Part shown: positions 3,326-33,120 of the stretch, piece by piece
Position numbering within the stretch: the stretch's first letter is position 1
How the letters are laid out: the number at the start of each line of letters is the position of its first letter
Assembly: GCA_002869885.2 (NCBI GenBank)
Contig: NEWR02000009.1
Span: 108,550-172,549 of the forward strand
DNA: 64,000 nt
Source: Nitrospira sp. CG24C
GTDB taxonomy: Bacteria; Nitrospirota; Nitrospiria; Nitrospirales; Nitrospiraceae
Direction: 5' to 3'
Notes under the pieces: model-generated
What the model saw: the letters and a program-made list of their open reading frames with translations, nothing else
Database searches by the model: none
What the model was told of the DNA's origin: nothing
Program-made: the position numbers and the translations under genes

Positions 3326-4603
3326 ATGACCCTCATATTTTGGTTTCTCGCTTGGGTCATGACGTTGCTTGTGCTGGGTCTGCTCCTGTGGCCGTTGCTC
3401 AAGCGCCAAGCGTCATCGAAAGAGGAAGAAGGAGAGAAGCCGCTTTCGGTCTATCGCCAGCAATTTGCCGAATTGGAACAAGACCATAAGAACGCCATGT
3501 TGACCGATGAGCAGTATCAGCAATCGAAACGAGAACTTGAACGACGGCTCCTCGATGAGACTGGGCCTGCCGAGGCCGCTTCTCCGTCGCGATTGTGGCC
3601 GGTGAACAGCCGAGCGGTCGGCGTGGCAGTAGCGGTCATCATTCCGATCGTCAGCGGATTACTATATTTGGAGTGGGGCAATCAGCAGGCGATTATACTT
3701 CCCACTGTATCCTCGCCAGCAGCACAAGGCAGGCCGGACTACACCCAAACAGCGTCCGAAGGGCTCGACGCGCTTTCCGAGCGGCTGAAAAAACGACTCG
3801 AGCAGAGTCCTGACGACGGAGTGGGGTGGGCTCTTCTCGCTCGTTCGTATGTAGAAATAGGACGGCATGCCGACGCGGCGCCGATCTATGAGAAGGCGAT
3901 GAAGTTGATCCCCGACGATCCTCAGATGCTCGTCGACTATGCCGATGTCCTCGGTATGCTGAATGGCCGAAAGCTGGCAGGCAAACCGGAGCAATTAATT
4001 CAGCAGGCGCTCAAGATCGATCCAAACCATGTCAAAGCGCTGATGCTGGCCGGGACCGTGGCGTTCGACCGCAAAGAGTTCGGACGGGCGGCGCAGTATT
4101 GGGAACGGGCCAGCGCCAACCTTCCGGCAAATGTGGAGACGGAGGTCCGACAGGATCTGCTATCGGGTATTGCCGAGGCCAAAGGGTTAGCCGGCGGGAA
4201 ACCGGTAATGGCCAAGGCGGTTGCTTTGGCGGTCCCTTCGACAAAGCCTGGTGGTCAGGCTGCCGCAATCAGCGGAACCGTGAGCCTGGCGTCCGGTCTC
4301 GCCGGGAAAGTCGCCTCAACGGACACGTTGTTCGTGTTCGCGCGCGAAATGAACGGCCCACCCATGCCGGTGTCGATCGTGCGGGCTACGAAACAGGATC
4401 TGCCATTTACGTTCCGACTCGATGACTCAACGAGCCCCATGCCGTCCAGAAAACTGTCCGATGTAGGCTCGGTGGTGATTGTGGCTCGCCTGTCGAAGTC
4501 CAGCCAGGCTATGCCACAAAGTGGAGACCTAGAGGGCATGAGTCAGCCGGTGAAACCTGGTGAAAGTAAAATCACCGTCGTCATCGATCGTGAAAGACCA
4601 TAG
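3326..4603 (+). CDS. ccmI: Cytochrome c biogenesis protein CcmI (CycH)
   Basis: CcmI is the membrane chaperone that presents apocytochrome c to the heme ligation complex CcmF/CcmH. The N-terminus has a membrane segment (residues ~3-24), then the typical charged segment containing YRQQFAELEQD and DEQYQQSKRELERRLLDE, a second membrane segment (~93-112), a TPR region (~145-265, with WALLARSYVEIGRHADAAP) and a C-terminal CycH-type beta domain (~305-425). The 425-residue length fits full-length CcmI. ATG at 3326 is preceded by AAGGCGAGACG. Its place directly after cytochrome and barrel genes fits a role in maturing the neighbouring multiheme proteins. No other ccm genes are visible here. Confidence 0.88.
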   Translation: MTLIFWFLAWVMTLLVLGLLLWPLLKRQASSKEEEGEKPLSVYRQQFAELEQDHKNAMLTDEQYQQSKRELERRLLDETGPAEAASPSRLWPVNSRAVGVAVAVIIPIVSGLLYLEWGNQQAIILPTVSSPAAQGRPDYTQTASEGLDALSERLKKRLEQSPDDGVGWALLARSYVEIGRHADAAPIYEKAMKLIPDDPQMLVDYADVLGMLNGRKLAGKPEQLIQQALKIDPNHVKALMLAGTVAFDRKEFGRAAQYWERASANLPANVETEVRQDLLSGIAEAKGLAGGKPVMAKAVALAVPSTKPGGQAAAISGTVSLASGLAGKVASTDTLFVFAREMNGPPMPVSIVRATKQDLPFTFRLDDSTSPMPSRKLSDVGSVVIVARLSKSSQAMPQSGDLEGMSQPVKPGESKITVVIDRERP

Positions 4604-4618
4604 GACGGAGCCGGTCGC

Positions 4619-5932
4619 ATGTCGCAATCATATCTCACCATGTTGCTCTACCTCCTGCCGGTGGTTTTCGCCCTGACGCTGTATTACCGCCGTCATCGGA
4701 AGCGGGATACCCACTATCGTGCCCGTTTGGCTGAGACGGTTGAGGCGAGTATCCCTGAGCCGCTCACCCTACACCCCGTCATCGATACCAACAAGTGCAT
4801 CGGCTCAACCGCTTGCATCAAGGCCTGTCCGGAACATGCGCTTGGGATCGTCAGGGGGAAGGCGACGCTCGTCCAACCAGATCACTGTATCGGTCACGGC
4901 GCCTGCCAGGCCGCTTGTCCTGTAGAAGCGATTCAGTTGGTGTTCGGGACGGAGAAGCGCGGCATCGATATCCCGCAAGTCAAACCGACTTTTGAAACTA
5001 ACGTCGCCGGCATCTACATTGCCGGCGAGTTGGGAGGGATGGGGTTGATTCGCAAGGGCGTCGATCAGGGGAAGCGAGCGATCGAGACGATTCGGAAAAA
5101 CAAGAGCAAAGGGGGCGAGTTGGATGTGGTAATTGTCGGCGCAGGGCCGGCCGGTATCTCCGCATCGCTGGCGGCGAAAGAGTCAGGATTGCGATTCGTG
5201 ACGGTCGAGCAGGAAGACTCACTCGGTGGCGCAATCTTCCACTACCCACGCCGAAAACTGGCCATGACGGCGCCGATGATATTGCCCATTGTCGGCAAGT
5301 TCAACAAGTACGAGATCAGTAAGGAAGAGTTGCTGGATTTTTGGGGCAAGATTACCCGTGAGAACAGTATCAAGATCAATTTCTCGGAGCGTATGGATGC
5401 GATCACGAAAACGGGAAACGGTTTCCTGGTGAAGACTTCGAAGAATAGCTACAAAACGAAGAACGTGCTCCTTGCCATTGGTCGGCGCGGCACGCCTCGC
5501 AAGCTTGGTGTGCTGGGAGAAGAGCAACCCAAGGTTGTCTATAGCCTGATCGACGCGGAACAATACCGCGACCAACATGTGCTGGTGGTGGGTGGCGGAG
5601 ACAGTGCGGCGGAAGCGGCCCTGTCGATTGCCGCAGAACGAGGCACCACGGTGACCATTTCCTGCCGCGGCGATGAAATTTTTACCCGCCCCAAAGACAA
5701 GAACCGGCAGCAGCTGAAACAGTGCGTCGAGCGCAAAACGCTCACGGTGTATGTGAATGCCACCGTAAAGGAGATCGGGCCCGATACGGTGACGCTGATG
5801 TACGAGGGTAAGGACATCACAATAAAGAACGACGCTGTGATCGTCTGCGCCGGCGGCACGCTCCCGACGGCCATGCTGAAAGAAATCGGCGTCATGGTCA
5901 CGACCTACTACGGTACGGCTGTGGCGAAATAA
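4619..5932 (+). CDS. Membrane-anchored 2x[4Fe-4S] ferredoxin / FAD-NAD(P) oxidoreductase
   Basis: An N-terminal membrane segment (residues ~5-22) precedes two ferredoxin motifs, CIGSTACIKACP and CIGHGACQAACP (~60-100). A thioredoxin-reductase-like flavoprotein follows, with a FAD-binding VVIVGAGPAGISASLAA near 170 and an NAD(P)-binding VLVVGGGDSAAEAAL near 325. No CxxC redox pair of true thioredoxin reductase is seen in the flavin part. The protein probably passes electrons between NAD(P)H, FAD and the iron-sulfur clusters at the cytoplasmic membrane. It starts 15 bp after ccmI with GGAG upstream and is likely in the same transcript. Related fusions occur in many anaerobes and nitrifiers; substrate and partner are not known from the sequence. 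Confidence 0.8.
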   Translation: MSQSYLTMLLYLLPVVFALTLYYRRHRKRDTHYRARLAETVEASIPEPLTLHPVIDTNKCIGSTACIKACPEHALGIVRGKATLVQPDHCIGHGACQAACPVEAIQLVFGTEKRGIDIPQVKPTFETNVAGIYIAGELGGMGLIRKGVDQGKRAIETIRKNKSKGGELDVVIVGAGPAGISASLAAKESGLRFVTVEQEDSLGGAIFHYPRRKLAMTAPMILPIVGKFNKYEISKEELLDFWGKITRENSIKINFSERMDAITKTGNGFLVKTSKNSYKTKNVLLAIGRRGTPRKLGVLGEEQPKVVYSLIDAEQYRDQHVLVVGGGDSAAEAALSIAAERGTTVTISCRGDEIFTRPKDKNRQQLKQCVERKTLTVYVNATVKEIGPDTVTLMYEGKDITIKNDAVIVCAGGTLPTAMLKEIGVMVTTYYGTAVAK

Positions 5933-5950
5933 ATTTTTCAGGAGGTACAT

Positions 5951-6577
5951 ATGTGGAGCTGGATCATAGTCGCCGGCATGATGATCTTGTCGATGAACGC
6001 TTGTGGGAATTCACGGCCTCTCCCTACAGCGGAAGACAAGTCGACTCACGTTGTCTTGCAGGCAGCCGGGTCGAATTCCTCTATTCAACGGCTGCGCATG
6101 CAGGCCGAGCGGGGAAATGTTGAAGCGCAGTTTGCGTTAGCCCAGGCCTACGATCGAGGTCGAGATGTTCCGAAAGACAAGACCGAGGCGGTCCGATGGT
6201 ATCGACTTGCGGCCACGCAAGGGGATGCGTTTGCTCAAAATGCTCTTGGCGATAATTACTGGGAGGGTACGGGCGTGCCGAAGGATGATACGCAAGCCGC
6301 GCGGTGGTGGCGGCTTGCGGCAGCCCAGGGGTTTGCCCCTGCCCAACATAGTTTAGGAAAGATACTCTCGGGAGGCGGTCAAGGCGTACGAACCGACAAA
6401 ACCCAAGCGTATATGTGGCTGGCGCTGTCTGCCGCCCAGGGTGACGAAGAGGCCAGCCGACAGGGTAACCTCCTCTCCAAGCAATTGAAGCCCGCCGAAG
6501 TGACGAACGCAAAGAAACTGGTCCAACAGTGGAAGCCCACGAGAGCCAGAGTTACGATCAACAGAATTGCGCAGTAA
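5951..6577 (+). CDS. Sel1-repeat secreted protein, probable lipoprotein
   Basis: A strong AGGAGGT at 5940-5946 precedes ATG 5951, 18 bp after the flavoprotein. The N-terminus MWSWIIVAGMMILSMNAC is a signal sequence ending in a possible but non-canonical lipobox (Cys18). Residues ~45-160 contain three to four Sel1 (TPR-like) repeats, with motifs such as AQFALAQAYDRGRDVPKD and AQNALGDNYWEGTGVPKD. Sel1 proteins act as scaffolds for protein complexes; no catalytic motif is visible. It closes the co-directional run that begins with the cytochrome. Confidence 0.82.
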   Translation: MWSWIIVAGMMILSMNACGNSRPLPTAEDKSTHVVLQAAGSNSSIQRLRMQAERGNVEAQFALAQAYDRGRDVPKDKTEAVRWYRLAATQGDAFAQNALGDNYWEGTGVPKDDTQAARWWRLAAAQGFAPAQHSLGKILSGGGQGVRTDKTQAYMWLALSAAQGDEEASRQGNLLSKQLKPAEVTNAKKLVQQWKPTRARVTINRIAQ

Positions 6578-20502: not shown

Positions 20503-20902
20503 TAATCACCCCTTGTTGCGTCGAGCGCCCAGTGTCGGCACTGAGACAAGTGTAGCAGATAGCATGAATTTTGCTGGTTCAGAGCAGAGACAAAGATCGG
20601 GACATGAGCCCTGAAGTTTGTGCTGATGGTCTATCAGGTTTGTTTAGTTCATCTGGTTCGTTTTTCCCAACCAACCAAACGAGGCAAACCAAACAGACCT
20701 GAGCAACCAGCCCGTTCTCACGGGCTTTCGACACGAACCGTCATGAATAATGTGGGTTAACAGTTTTTCTTGTAACCGAGACGGAGAGGAGGGTACTATA
20801 GTATCGATTGGCTCAGCTGCGTCACGACCTTTAGAGGGAGCCGCTTAGAGCATTTCAACGAACTCATTGACAATCCGGTCATCCTCGTATTTATAAGGTG
20901 TT
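20503..20902. other. Intergenic region with repeat families A and B
   Basis: At 20629-20712 lies a copy of repeat family A, an imperfect inverted repeat rich in TTTGGTT / AACCAAAC words. It is followed at 20728-20757 by a copy of family B containing CGTCATGAATAATGTGGG. The remaining bases form the leader of the efflux operon. Confidence 0.6.
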
Positions 20903-28442: not shown

Positions 28443-29504
28443 ATGATGACCTTCCGCAATCATCGTCTGCGCGATTTCGCCGTGCCGATGGGCACCAATT
28501 GGCTGCTCAACGACCTTGCCGAAGCCAAGGGCAAGCAGGAACTGTACACCCGGCAATCGCCGCAAGTGCTGAAGGCCCTGCGCGAAATGGCCATGGTCCA
28601 AAGCGTCGAATCGTCCAATCGCATCGAAGGCGTCACCGTCGCGCCAGACCGGCTGCGCCCGCTCGTCCTTGGCAACGCTCGCCCCAAAGACCGGTCCGAG
28701 CAAGACATCATGGGGTATCGCCGAGCCTTGCATCTCATCCACACCGAAGTGGAGACATTGCCCATCACTCCCGACCTGCTGCGCCGCCTGCATCGGCTCT
28801 GTCAGGAAGGCAGCGGCGATGCCGGTCAGTTCAAGAAAGTGGACAACGAAGTCATCGAACTGCTGCCAGACGCCGCGCCCATCATACGTTTCAAGTGTGT
28901 TCCCGCCAAAGCCACGCCCGCCGCCGTAGACGAACTCTGCCTCGTCTATCGCCACGCCATCGACCAGGACCATATCCCGCCGCTCGTGGCCATCGGGGCG
29001 CTCGTGCTCGATTTCCTTTGCATCCACCCGTTCCGTGACGGCAATGGCCGCGTCTCCCGCCTGCTCACGCTGCTGGCACTCTACCAGCACGGCTATGAAG
29101 TAGGCCGGTACATCAGCCTGGAGAGGCTCATCGAAGAAGGAAAAGACGACTACTACCACGTCCTCCAGCAAAGCTCTCAGCGCTGGCACGAGGGCAAACA
29201 TGACCTCCTGCCCTGGCTCAATCATTTTTTGGCCATTGCCCGCCGCGCCTATGGTGAATTCGAGAGGCGCGCCGGAGAGGTCAAAGCCCCGCGCGGGGCA
29301 AAGGCTGGGATCGTACTCGCGGCAATCCGCCGGCAATCAAGCGAGTTCCGTCTCATTGACATCGAGCAGGCCTGTCCCGGCGTAGGCCGGGAATGGATTC
29401 GCTCCCTACTCACCGAGTTGAAAGCGGAAGGCGAAGCGGATTGCCGGGGCAAAGGTCCGGCAGCCCGCTGGCGTTATCTGGGGAGTAAGGGTAGTAACTC
29501 GTGA
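28443..29504 (+). CDS. Fic-domain protein (class II, self-inhibited) with C-terminal winged helix
   Basis: Fic enzymes transfer AMP or a related moiety from nucleotides to protein hydroxyls. The active motif HPFRDGNGR (~residues 198-206) is complete, including the catalytic His. An N-terminal inhibitory motif SNRIEG (~59-64) fits the (S/T)xxxE(G/N) rule, so activity is likely auto-inhibited in cis. The C-terminal ~80 residues (SSEFRLIDIEQACPG) look like a winged helix-turn-helix. The 353-residue length is typical of Fic/DUF4172-like regulators. The last codons lie in a short tandem repeat. Found next to a restriction-modification-type gene, it may belong to a defence or mobile cargo region. 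Confidence 0.9.
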   Translation: MMTFRNHRLRDFAVPMGTNWLLNDLAEAKGKQELYTRQSPQVLKALREMAMVQSVESSNRIEGVTVAPDRLRPLVLGNARPKDRSEQDIMGYRRALHLIHTEVETLPITPDLLRRLHRLCQEGSGDAGQFKKVDNEVIELLPDAAPIIRFKCVPAKATPAAVDELCLVYRHAIDQDHIPPLVAIGALVLDFLCIHPFRDGNGRVSRLLTLLALYQHGYEVGRYISLERLIEEGKDDYYHVLQQSSQRWHEGKHDLLPWLNHFLAIARRAYGEFERRAGEVKAPRGAKAGIVLAAIRRQSSEFRLIDIEQACPGVGREWIRSLLTELKAEGEADCRGKGPAARWRYLGSKGSNS

Positions 29505-29594: not shown

Positions 29595-29790
29595 CTAGCC
29601 CGCATTATTCATGAGCGCTTCTGCTGCAATCGCCGATCCGCTGTTGCAACGAGCCTGCGGCCTGCGGGCTCGCCCCTCGAACCCTCAACGTACTGCACGA
29701 GTACGCCTCGGGTCCTCACGGCTCCGCGCGCAGGTCTCACGACGCGGCTCAGCGATTTCGCGACGAACCGTCATGAATAATGCGGGCTAG
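29595..29790. mobile_element. MITE-like element with 20-bp perfect terminal inverted repeats (family B)
   Basis: Left end CTAGCCCGCATTATTCATGA (29595-29614) is the exact reverse complement of the right end at 29771-29790. Similarity between the arms continues inward for about 25 bp more. The 196-bp body has no transposase or other ORF of note. Solo or diverged right ends occur at 20728, 28100 and about 41720. The left side abuts an end of family E. A target-site duplication is not obvious. Confidence 0.75.
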
Positions 29791-30039: not shown

Positions 30040-33000
30040 ATGCCGACACTAAATTGGATTGGGAAAGAGGCAGTGGTGAATCATCACCACCAGGTGCCGT
30101 TTCACTTGCTGAAAGACGTGCCTGATTTGGCATGTGGCGAGCCCGGCGACGGGAATCTCATCGTGCAGGGCGACAACCTCGTCGCGCTCAAGGCGCTGCT
30201 CCCGTATTACGCGGGGCAGGTCAAGTGCATCTACATCGATCCACCGTATAACACGGGCAACGAGGGCTGGGTTTACAACGACAATGTGAACAGCCCGGTC
30301 ATCCGTGAGTGGCTAGGCAAAGTTGTGGGCAAGGAAGGCGAGACGCTCGATCGGCATGATCGCTGGTTGTGCATGATGTATCCGAGGCTGGTGTCGCTTC
30401 GGCGGTTTCTCCGCGCGGATGGGGTAATCTTGGTGAGCATTGATGACAATGCCTTGACCAACCTACTTCACGTCCTAGAGGAAATCTTCGGGGCCGTAAA
30501 CCATCTTGGAACTTTGGTCTGGGAAAAAGGTAAGAAAGGAGACTCCAAGTTTTTTTCAGAGAATCATGAGTATATCGTGGTTTTCGCACTAAACAAGTCC
30601 CTGCTCATCGAAAGAAAGATCAAATGGCAAAAACGTAAGGAAGGTGTGGATCGGGTGTTGGAACGTTACCAGTCCTTTCGCGCAGACCTCGACGAAAACC
30701 ACACCGAAATCCGAGTGGCGATGATGAAGTGGTATCGCTTACTTAAGAAAGATGATCCTGCCAAGGCGCACAAGCACTATAATTGGTCGGATGCGAAAGG
30801 GTTATACTTTGCGGCAGACTTTGCCGGGCCGGATGATGGACGGGAGAATCGTCCGCGTTATGACATACCTCATCCTGTCACAGGTAAATGCTGCAAAAAG
30901 CCATCAACTGGTTGGAGGTGGGATGAGGAAACTACCAAGGTTGCACTAGCAGAGTATCCACCGCGCATTCATTTTGGACCAGACGAAACAACTATTCCAT
31001 GCAGGAAGACATATCTTTTCGAGGTATCCCAAGAACCTTTTCCGACCGTTTTCTACAAGGACGGACGAGCAGCAACTTTGCTTGTTGAGGAAATCCTCGG
31101 CAAAGGTGCTTTTGCTTTCCCAAAAGATGTGAGTGTCCTGAGTGATCTCATCGGGATGATCTCCAAGCCAGGAGATGTGGTTCTAGACTCTTTCGCAGGA
31201 TCTGGTTCAACCGCCCATGCTCTTTTAGAACTCAACTGCAGTACTCCTCAAAGCGAACCGCGTCGTTTCATACTGGTTCAACAGCCGTACGAAACTGAAG
31301 AACAGCGGCTCAACAACGAAAACATCTGCAGAGATAAGACTGTGACCGAGGGGCAGCAGACGAGCGAGTATGTCCGGCCTATTCTCTTGATCCAGGCTGA
31401 ACGTGTCGATGCCTGTGAGCCGCTACGCGACCGGCTGGTGCGGGAGTTCGGTCTCTCGAAGGACGAGGTAAAAATCTCCGTCGGCAAGCTCGATGAGTTG
31501 AAAAATGTGAAGGACATCGCGTCGCCGAAGTGCCTGGTGCGCGTGATTATCACGGTGGAAAAGCTGCGGGAGGGGTGGGATTGCCCATTTGCCTATGTGT
31601 TATGCAGCCTCAAGGAGACACGTTCGGTTACGGCCATCGAGCAGATTGTCGGACGCATTCTCCGGCTGCCGCTCGCCCAAGCGAAGCGGCATCTCGATCT
31701 CAACTGCGCCTATGCCTTTTCGGTATCGGATTCGATCACGGACGTACTAGCGGAATTGCGTGAGGCGCTGGAGCATAACGGCTTCACGGCAGCGGAGGCC
31801 GAGCGGATCATCATTCCAGTGCCGCAAGGAACCTTTCCGCTCGGTGTGCAGCCACAGACCGTGAAACTTACACCGGCCGAAATTGACGCGACGGTGGCCC
31901 CCATCCAGGTATTGGCCCTTGCCGGCAAGGTGCGAATTGATACCGCAACAGGCGAGATCACCATTGTAGTCCCGCTCGATGATGCCGACACCGAGAAGCT
32001 GAAGAGTTGCGTAAAGACTCCCGAAGCCAAGATTCAGGTGGAGGAAGCCGTCACGCTTGTGCGAGAGGCGGAGAAGGCATTCGGCGGAAGTGGGGCTACA
32101 CGCGTCCCCTCGCCGTACGAACGTCAACTGGATTTTCTTGTACCACTGATCTGTGTCTTTGAAAATGGAACGTTGTACGAGTTCGAGAGCACGTTTCTGA
32201 TCGAACATCCCTGGAAACTCAGCGAAAAGGATGCCTCGCTGCCATCAGGGTACAACCCTCTCGTCCGTCCGGTCGGTTATGCTGGTGTGGTGGATGTCGG
32301 CGCGAAGGGAGATGTGCAGACGATCGTCATCAAGGATCCTTCAGAAGTAGATTTTATCGGGACGTTGCATCAGCAGACGCTCCAGCTCGGGGGTACGTAC
32401 GATTGGTCGATCGATAGTCTTATTGCCTGGTTGGATCGAGAGATTGATCATCCGGACATTCCAGCCGGTGAGTCGGCGGAGTTTCTGAGAAAAGTTATCC
32501 GAGGCCTCATGGCGAAGCTGGGCATGACGGATGTCAGCACCGTGGCGCTCGATCGTTTTCGGCTCCGTGACGAGATTGCAGCTCGTATCCAGGATCATCG
32601 AGAGAGCGAGCGCAAGGCATCGTTTCAGTTGTTGCTTCTGCCGGCCTCGCCGCTGACTGTTGACGAAGGGCGCTCGATCAACTTCAAGACGATGGGCTAT
32701 GAACCGAGCCGTGTCTATGAAGGGGGCTTTCAGTTTCAAAAGCACTATTTTGGGCCAAAACCGGGAGAACTATCCGAAAAGACGGCCGATGGTCAGGCCA
32801 CGGAAGAGTTTCGTTGCGCGCAGTTCCTCGATGGTTTGCTGCAAGTGCAGTTCTGGGTTCGGAACCTTCCTCGCAAGCCCACGTCATTCCGGCTGCAAAC
32901 CTCAACAGACTGGTTTTATCCAGACTTCCTTTGCCAACTTGCTGATGGGCGAGTGCTTGCGGTCGAATACAAAGGGAAACATCTGTACGACGCTGTGGAC

Positions 33001-33120
33001 GCTGAAGAAAAGCGGGCAGTTGGTCAAGTCTGGGCCTCCCGAAGCGGCGGACGGTGCCTATTTGTGATGCCAACCGACGGGGACTTTTCTGTTATTAATA
33101 AAGCAGTAGCTTCTGCATAG
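30040..33120 (+). CDS. Chimera of type III Mod methyltransferase and C-terminal half of type III Res
   Basis: ATG 30040 (MPTLNWIGKEAVVNHH) matches the usual start of Mod; the frame is open to 29926, and no good ribosome binding site is seen. Residues 1-~435 are a beta-class N6-adenine methyltransferase: catalytic DPPYNT at 67-72, target-recognition region, and AdoMet motif DSFAGSGST at ~383-391. From ~residue 440 the chain becomes the rear of a Res subunit: YVRPILLIQ, helicase motif V-like REGWDCP, motif VI-like QIVGRILRLP, and near ~962-985 a PD-(D/E)xK nuclease YPDF...VEYKGK. Missing are the Mod C-terminus and the Res N-terminal lobe with Walker A and DEAD-type box. A one-gene enzyme with a methylase and a nuclease but no complete ATPase is unusual. 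It may be a deletion product, an assembly artefact or a working fusion. Confidence 0.88.
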   Translation: MPTLNWIGKEAVVNHHHQVPFHLLKDVPDLACGEPGDGNLIVQGDNLVALKALLPYYAGQVKCIYIDPPYNTGNEGWVYNDNVNSPVIREWLGKVVGKEGETLDRHDRWLCMMYPRLVSLRRFLRADGVILVSIDDNALTNLLHVLEEIFGAVNHLGTLVWEKGKKGDSKFFSENHEYIVVFALNKSLLIERKIKWQKRKEGVDRVLERYQSFRADLDENHTEIRVAMMKWYRLLKKDDPAKAHKHYNWSDAKGLYFAADFAGPDDGRENRPRYDIPHPVTGKCCKKPSTGWRWDEETTKVALAEYPPRIHFGPDETTIPCRKTYLFEVSQEPFPTVFYKDGRAATLLVEEILGKGAFAFPKDVSVLSDLIGMISKPGDVVLDSFAGSGSTAHALLELNCSTPQSEPRRFILVQQPYETEEQRLNNENICRDKTVTEGQQTSEYVRPILLIQAERVDACEPLRDRLVREFGLSKDEVKISVGKLDELKNVKDIASPKCLVRVIITVEKLREGWDCPFAYVLCSLKETRSVTAIEQIVGRILRLPLAQAKRHLDLNCAYAFSVSDSITDVLAELREALEHNGFTAAEAERIIIPVPQGTFPLGVQPQTVKLTPAEIDATVAPIQVLALAGKVRIDTATGEITIVVPLDDADTEKLKSCVKTPEAKIQVEEAVTLVREAEKAFGGSGATRVPSPYERQLDFLVPLICVFENGTLYEFESTFLIEHPWKLSEKDASLPSGYNPLVRPVGYAGVVDVGAKGDVQTIVIKDPSEVDFIGTLHQQTLQLGGTYDWSIDSLIAWLDREIDHPDIPAGESAEFLRKVIRGLMAKLGMTDVSTVALDRFRLRDEIAARIQDHRESERKASFQLLLLPASPLTVDEGRSINFKTMGYEPSRVYEGGFQFQKHYFGPKPGELSEKTADGQATEEFRCAQFLDGLLQVQFWVRNLPRKPTSFRLQTSTDWFYPDFLCQLADGRVLAVEYKGKHLYDAVDAEEKRAVGQVWASRSGGRCLFVMPTDGDFSVINKAVASA

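Follow-up and report, generated by a model that had tools for sequence, protein, structure and literature searches.

An in-frame fusion of type III mod and res genes in Nitrospira sp. CG24C, probably a disarmed restriction system

The 64,000-nucleotide stretch of Nitrospira sp. CG24C DNA analysed here (the window) contains a single open frame at positions 30040-33120 of the forward strand, which runs from an ATG to a stop codon without an internal stop and encodes a 1026-residue protein whose residues 1-433 are type III Mod sequence and whose residues from 434 onward are type III Res sequence. The in-frame Mod-Res chimera claimed in a preliminary description of this DNA was borne out both by the open frame and by the PADLOC models matched by its two halves. 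We consider it quite probable that the gene arose through a recent internal deletion of ~1.95 kb in a mod-ORF6N-res operon, which would have left restriction dead, solitary methylation at most, and a RecA2-nuclease passenger. The fusion is probably a disarmed restriction system, and its cause is most likely an ordinary internal deletion and ordinary decay, with an in-frame result that is unusually clean.

Composition of the fusion and position of the join

The features of the locus are listed below, where L028 and L003 are relatives that carry the intact operon and its ORF6N-res end, respectively.

30040..31339, + strand: Mod-derived part (residues 1-433), MTase core and TRD without the C-terminal tail; from PDLC03644, the EcoP15I Mod match and identity to other Mods
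30238..30255, + strand: MTase motif IV, DPPYNT (residues 67-72); from the translation, with DPPYN invariant in 29 of 29 aligned Mods
30640..31026, + strand: TRD (approximately residues 201-329), EcoP15I-like and unlike the nearest Nitrospira Mods; from the collinear EcoP15I match and the gapped alignment to L028 in this region, with limits from PMC4490356
31186..31212, + strand: MTase motif I, DSFAGSGST (residues 383-391); from the translation, with invariant glycines
31337..31340, + strand: putative deletion junction, shorter by ~1952 bp than the L028-type operon; from Res DNA identity beginning at 31340, Mod similarity to residue 432-434 and the spacing in L028
31340..33120, + strand: Res-derived part (residues 434-1026, the first corresponding to intact-Res residue ~303), RecA2 lobe, spacer and nuclease; from 91% identity to the L003 Res and PDLC03650 positions 303-876
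31561..31587, + strand: helicase motif V region, KLREGWDCP (residues 508-516); from the Res alignment and the match to EcoP15I Res 496-569
31639..31665, + strand: helicase motif VI, EQIVGRILR (residues 534-542); Q, G and R invariant in 28 of 28 aligned Res
32923..32973, + strand: PD-(D/E)xK nuclease motif, D962 ... E976-Y-K978; likewise invariant across the 28 Res and in a high-confidence region of the model

In PADLOC, residues 1-440 fit positions 1-401 of the 542 in the type III Mod model PDLC03644 (E 3.8e-143), and residues 429-1011 fit positions 303-876 of the 898 in the corresponding Res model, PDLC03650 (E 2.9e-67). Pfam placed an N6_N4 methylase domain at residues 61-399. Over the aligned core, the Mod half is 65-71% identical to the nearest Mods. 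Comparison with solved structures showed that residues 3-420 are collinear with EcoP15I Mod 57-474 (E 3.1e-57), TRD included, and that residues 501-573 resemble EcoP15I Res 496-569. As in type III systems, the Mod half is a beta-class Mod with DPPY and FxGxG motifs, found at the residues where the preliminary description had put DPPYNT (about 67) and DSFAGSGST (about 383), and the Res half carries a C-terminal PD-(D/E)xK nuclease motif. Three further attributes of these systems are missing, namely the Mod CTD that contacts Res, the Walker A and DEAH ATPase (Res residues 1-302 are absent) and the division into separate mod and res genes. Helicase motifs V and VI and the nuclease were recognized at the outset as the content of the Res half, yet a complete RecA2 lobe and spacer are also kept.

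Separate structure models of the two halves, a check that the preliminary description had suggested, gave matching assignments. The best structural match of the Mod-half model was EcoP15I Mod (E 3.0e-30), and the Res-half model resembled SF2 helicase RecA2 domains with weak E-values (best 3.6e-3) at a probability near 1; confidence in the latter model was low around the motifs and high in the nuclease region. Residues 419-433 model poorly, and residues 420-432, just before the join, are predicted to be helical at low confidence. In EcoP15I Mod, the MTase domain comprises residues 62-262 and 390-516, the TRD residues 263-384 and the CTD residues 539-644 (PMC4490356). Extrapolation from the collinear region would end the Mod half near EcoP15I residue 488, so that the TRD and the bulk of the MTase domain are kept and the last MTase helix and the CTD are lost.

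The position of the join was approached from both sides. Intact res genes of four members of the genus show DNA identity to the fusion from 31340 onward, and 21 genomes of the family match the fusion DNA from 31340-31353 on, none of them crossing leftward. From the other side, Mod proteins align to the fusion up to residues 432-434 (for example, NICKDIT in L121 versus NICRDKT in the fusion). These alignments place the join at 31337-31340, inside the 31330-31360 range given at first, without visible filler; a few bases of microhomology are possible, and the Mod-side end of the deletion is approximate rather than exact to the base because the exact parent mod is absent from databases, where the nearest Mods are about 67-71% identical. 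The unusual QQPYETEEQRLNNENICRDKT end was considered as filler DNA and rejected, since other Mods align through the last residues, which makes it Mod sequence. About twelve residues of the Res half precede the first RecA2 strand, RPILLIQA. Both breakpoints lie near domain borders (the end of the MTase core and the start of RecA2), an arrangement equally compatible with selection for the fusion and with chance.

The parent operon and what was lost

Seven relatives (L028, L006, L007, L009, L010, L033 and L049) share the gene order mod, a gene of ~197 aa and res (~894 aa), and the mod of intact relatives in the same family encodes ~540-560 aa. The middle gene of L003, whose contig carries only the ORF6N-res end of the operon, encodes an ORF6N-domain protein; PADLOC lists the ORF6N-domain gene between mod and res (L003 331-924; L028 4505-5104) as a PDC-S05 candidate. 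The Res of four such loci (L028, L003, L006 and L049) is 81-91% identical to that of the fusion and Mod residues 1-114 are nearly identical, whereas these operons are intact (L003 as far as its ORF6N-res end goes) and have other TRDs.

Relative to L028, bases 4055-6006 (~1952 bp) are missing from the fusion locus, which corresponds to Mod residues 413-560, the entire ORF6N gene and Res residues 1-302; the DNA immediately upstream of the fusion start is still similar to L028. The lost part of Res is the RecA1 lobe with its Walker A motif (PTGGGKT) and DEAH box. The homology limits of both halves agree with the earlier claim that the protein lacks the Mod tail and the ATP-binding lobe of Res, and the loss extends to a third gene, ORF6N, which had not been foreseen.

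Genome-wide checks, made by sequence searches of the assembly (22 contigs, completeness 94%), did not recover these parts elsewhere. An intact-Res query (residues 1-380) matched its own assembly only through residues 301-380, at the fusion locus, and an intact-Mod tail query only through its first 36 residues, at the same place. No second match to the N-terminal lobe of a type III Res from this family was found in the 94% complete assembly at E <= 1. As expected of an orphan MTase, no functional cognate restriction subunit was detected in that assembly.

In EcoP15I, Res motifs Q to III lie on RecA1 and motifs IV to VI on RecA2, the CTD of one Mod contacts Res, and type III cutting requires ATP hydrolysis by the RecA1-containing lobe (PMC4490356). 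A single internal deletion would have taken away the end of mod, all of the ORF6N gene and res codons 1-302, the frame being kept by chance. Without RecA1, Walker A and the DEAH box, the fusion should be unable to bind or split ATP, and without ATP use it could not start the sliding through which type III enzymes come to cut DNA. Without the Mod CTD, it should not recruit another Res either, and none of this family was found in the genome. ATP-dependent restriction is presumably dead because the RecA1 lobe and the Res-docking Mod CTD are both lost, and any activity that remains would be methylation, carried out by dimerized Mod halves with the RecA2-nuclease half attached as a passenger. Given the lost Res lobe and Mod tail, the methylase with a dead passenger proposed in the preliminary description is the best reading.

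The odds that the Mod half still methylates are nearly even, the uncertainty arising because the cut falls within the final helix of the MTase core. A variant of the deletion reading, to which we give somewhat less than an even chance, is that methylation and cutting are both dead and that the gene is a young pseudogene without a stop codon by chance. Removal of the last MTase helix and all later Mod sequence (PF01555 is matched up to position 203 of 221 in the fusion, compared with 219 of 221 in the L028 Mod) is in its favor, as are the poorly modelled residues 419-433 and the substitution E138A at an otherwise invariant position. Nevertheless, MTase motifs IV and I, the TRD and an EcoP15I-like core are intact, and the EcoP15I Mod dimer is formed through the NTD and MTase domains rather than through the CTD (PMC4490356).

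Distribution of the junction, constraint and age

The junction was absent from 31 other members of the genus, 174 other members of the family and 395 other members of the phylum, as well as from the 79 loci kept from a scan of 84,980 genomes. It was not found among plasmids or phages, where the relatives have separate mod and res genes or Mod only. A few Mod matches extend 4-14 residues beyond the join at <=42% identity and were taken as Mods with their own tails. The fusion was seen in one assembly and is unique to this genome among those searched. A viral origin was also considered and rejected: the Mod TRD part had no viral relative, and Res relatives on viral contigs are ~30-56% identical, except for one at 75%.

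Occurrence in a single assembly of 94% completeness and 22 contigs could indicate an assembly or consensus artefact, the true genome having an intact operon from which ~2 kb was lost in assembly. We regard this as quite unlikely. A 221-bp junction sequence matches the genome once and no 15-mer around the junction recurs within the 64-kb window, leaving no repeat to collapse on; in addition, the missing parts are on no other contig and the join is clean and in frame. Repeat collapse in particular is unlikely because of the single-copy junction and the lack of repeated 15-mers.

A separate remnant of the same operon was found at L016 6001-9088 (Nitrospirae MAG SKS1.bin124, Nitrospirota). Its match length of 3079 bp made it a candidate for the same fusion, which was rejected when inspection showed a different, doubly deleted operon. 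Two other, independent internal deletions have removed Mod residues 45-526 and Res residues 145-278 (joining Mod 44 to 527 and Res 144 to 279) with near-seamless joins, overlaps of 2-4 bp and an intact ORF6N gene; the two Res pieces are in different frames and there is no Mod-Res fusion. This shows that near-seamless internal deletions also occur in this operon in other lineages.

The Res half of the fusion has a dN/dS of 0.109 relative to L003, compared with 0.10-0.13 in the closest intact pairs. Branch changes numbered 18 nonsynonymous and 57 synonymous in the fusion versus 11 and 43 in L003 (Fisher p 0.67), and the neutral share of the fusion's branch is at most ~10%. The first 114 Mod codons are constrained too (w 0.02-0.08), and private changes at columns invariant in relatives are rare in both the Mod half (1 of 43) and the Res half (1 of 54), similar to intact members. 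By these comparisons the fusion appears to be under ordinary constraint, with no sign of decay. The preliminary description had named, as signs against the fusion, the lack of a second genome with the junction together with decay; the former was observed and the latter was not. The Res half of L016 is as undecayed as that of the fusion, and because it is out of frame, an intact-looking Res half may only mean that the break is young. The deletion event would thus be recent, and constraint would mark recency rather than proven function.

These results bear on whether the protein works as a single chain without the ATPase lobe, either as an ATP-independent methylase-nuclease or with its nuclease held in check. 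Each retained part (MTase core, TRD, RecA2, spacer and nuclease) is a complete or almost complete domain, the catalytic motifs are intact in both halves and constraint is preserved. However, a recent loss accounts for the constraint equally well, as the equally intact, out-of-frame Res of L016 illustrates, the fusion occurs in no second genome, and type III enzymes cut only when ATP is hydrolyzed by the very lobe that was lost (PMC4490356); a methylase carrying an uncontrolled nuclease would also tend to harm its host. We consider a functional single chain very improbable, and give as little credence to a newborn enzyme kept by selection, whether for ATP-independent cutting or nicking or for methylation steered by the passenger. 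The single-chain enzyme with altered control, raised in the preliminary description, gained no positive support from the unique junction, the different breakage of the L016 operon or the absence of the lost parts from the assembly.

Comparison with known systems and neighboring sequences

In Type ISP and Type IIG enzymes, an MTase of another class and a nuclease share one chain, with the nuclease first. The fusion is likewise a single chain with both activities represented, but it reads MTase-TRD-RecA2-nuclease, in line with the earlier remark that its order is unlike Type ISP; the nuclease is last because of the operon order. Compared with the EcoP15I type (Mod2Res1), the collinear Mod half and a Res half with motifs V and VI and the PD-(D/E)xK end are shared, whereas the fusion is one chain and lacks the Mod CTD, the RecA1 lobe, Walker A and DEAH. 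The L016 remnant resembles it in that internal deletions broke the same operon, and differs in that those deletions are two others, out of frame and unfused.

Loss of Res with retention of Mod is known from inactivating res mutations in the phasevarions of Haemophilus and Neisseria, and N. gonorrhoeae has a 250-aa in-frame res deletion beside modA11/modA12 (PMC2667262). As in the fusion, part of Res is lost in frame next to a Mod, but the phasevarion Mod is whole, separate and phase-variable, while that of the fusion is truncated and fused. A limited search of the open-access literature turned up no description of a naturally occurring fusion between Mod and Res. What differs from known Res losses is that a single deletion struck both genes, took out a third and left one uninterrupted frame. 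The locus illustrates cleanly how restriction can disappear from a type III system in a single event, since the Res-docking Mod domain and the Res ATPase lobe go together and the methylase core that is left may stay active. If methylation is kept, this would show how a restriction system can turn into a solitary methylase without the risk of self-cutting; should the nuclease half be active, the protein would provide a natural experiment on whether type III cutting can be freed from ATP.

Several other observations concern the Mod proteins and the DNA around the fusion. Nitrospira Mods (L028, L013 and L009) have almost the same residues 1-114 but wholly different TRDs; the TRD of the fusion (within 30040-31026) is EcoP15I-like and shared with proteobacterial Mods (~67%). 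This pattern points to TRD exchange. In L070 (419-1586), Mod residues 82-163 are inverted within the gene, between residues 1-79 and 172-414, which reflects either misassembly or a true inversion. The fusion is directly preceded by a Fic/DOC-family gene (28443-29504; PADLOC SoFic, E 4.2e-35), and between the two lies a 196-bp MITE-like element (29595-29790) with perfect 20-bp terminal inverted repeats (CTAGCCCGCATTATTCATGA). A genome search with this element returned 54 matching pieces, about ten of them near full-length at 81-100%, and looser TIR-like copies are present at 20741, 28131 and 41726.
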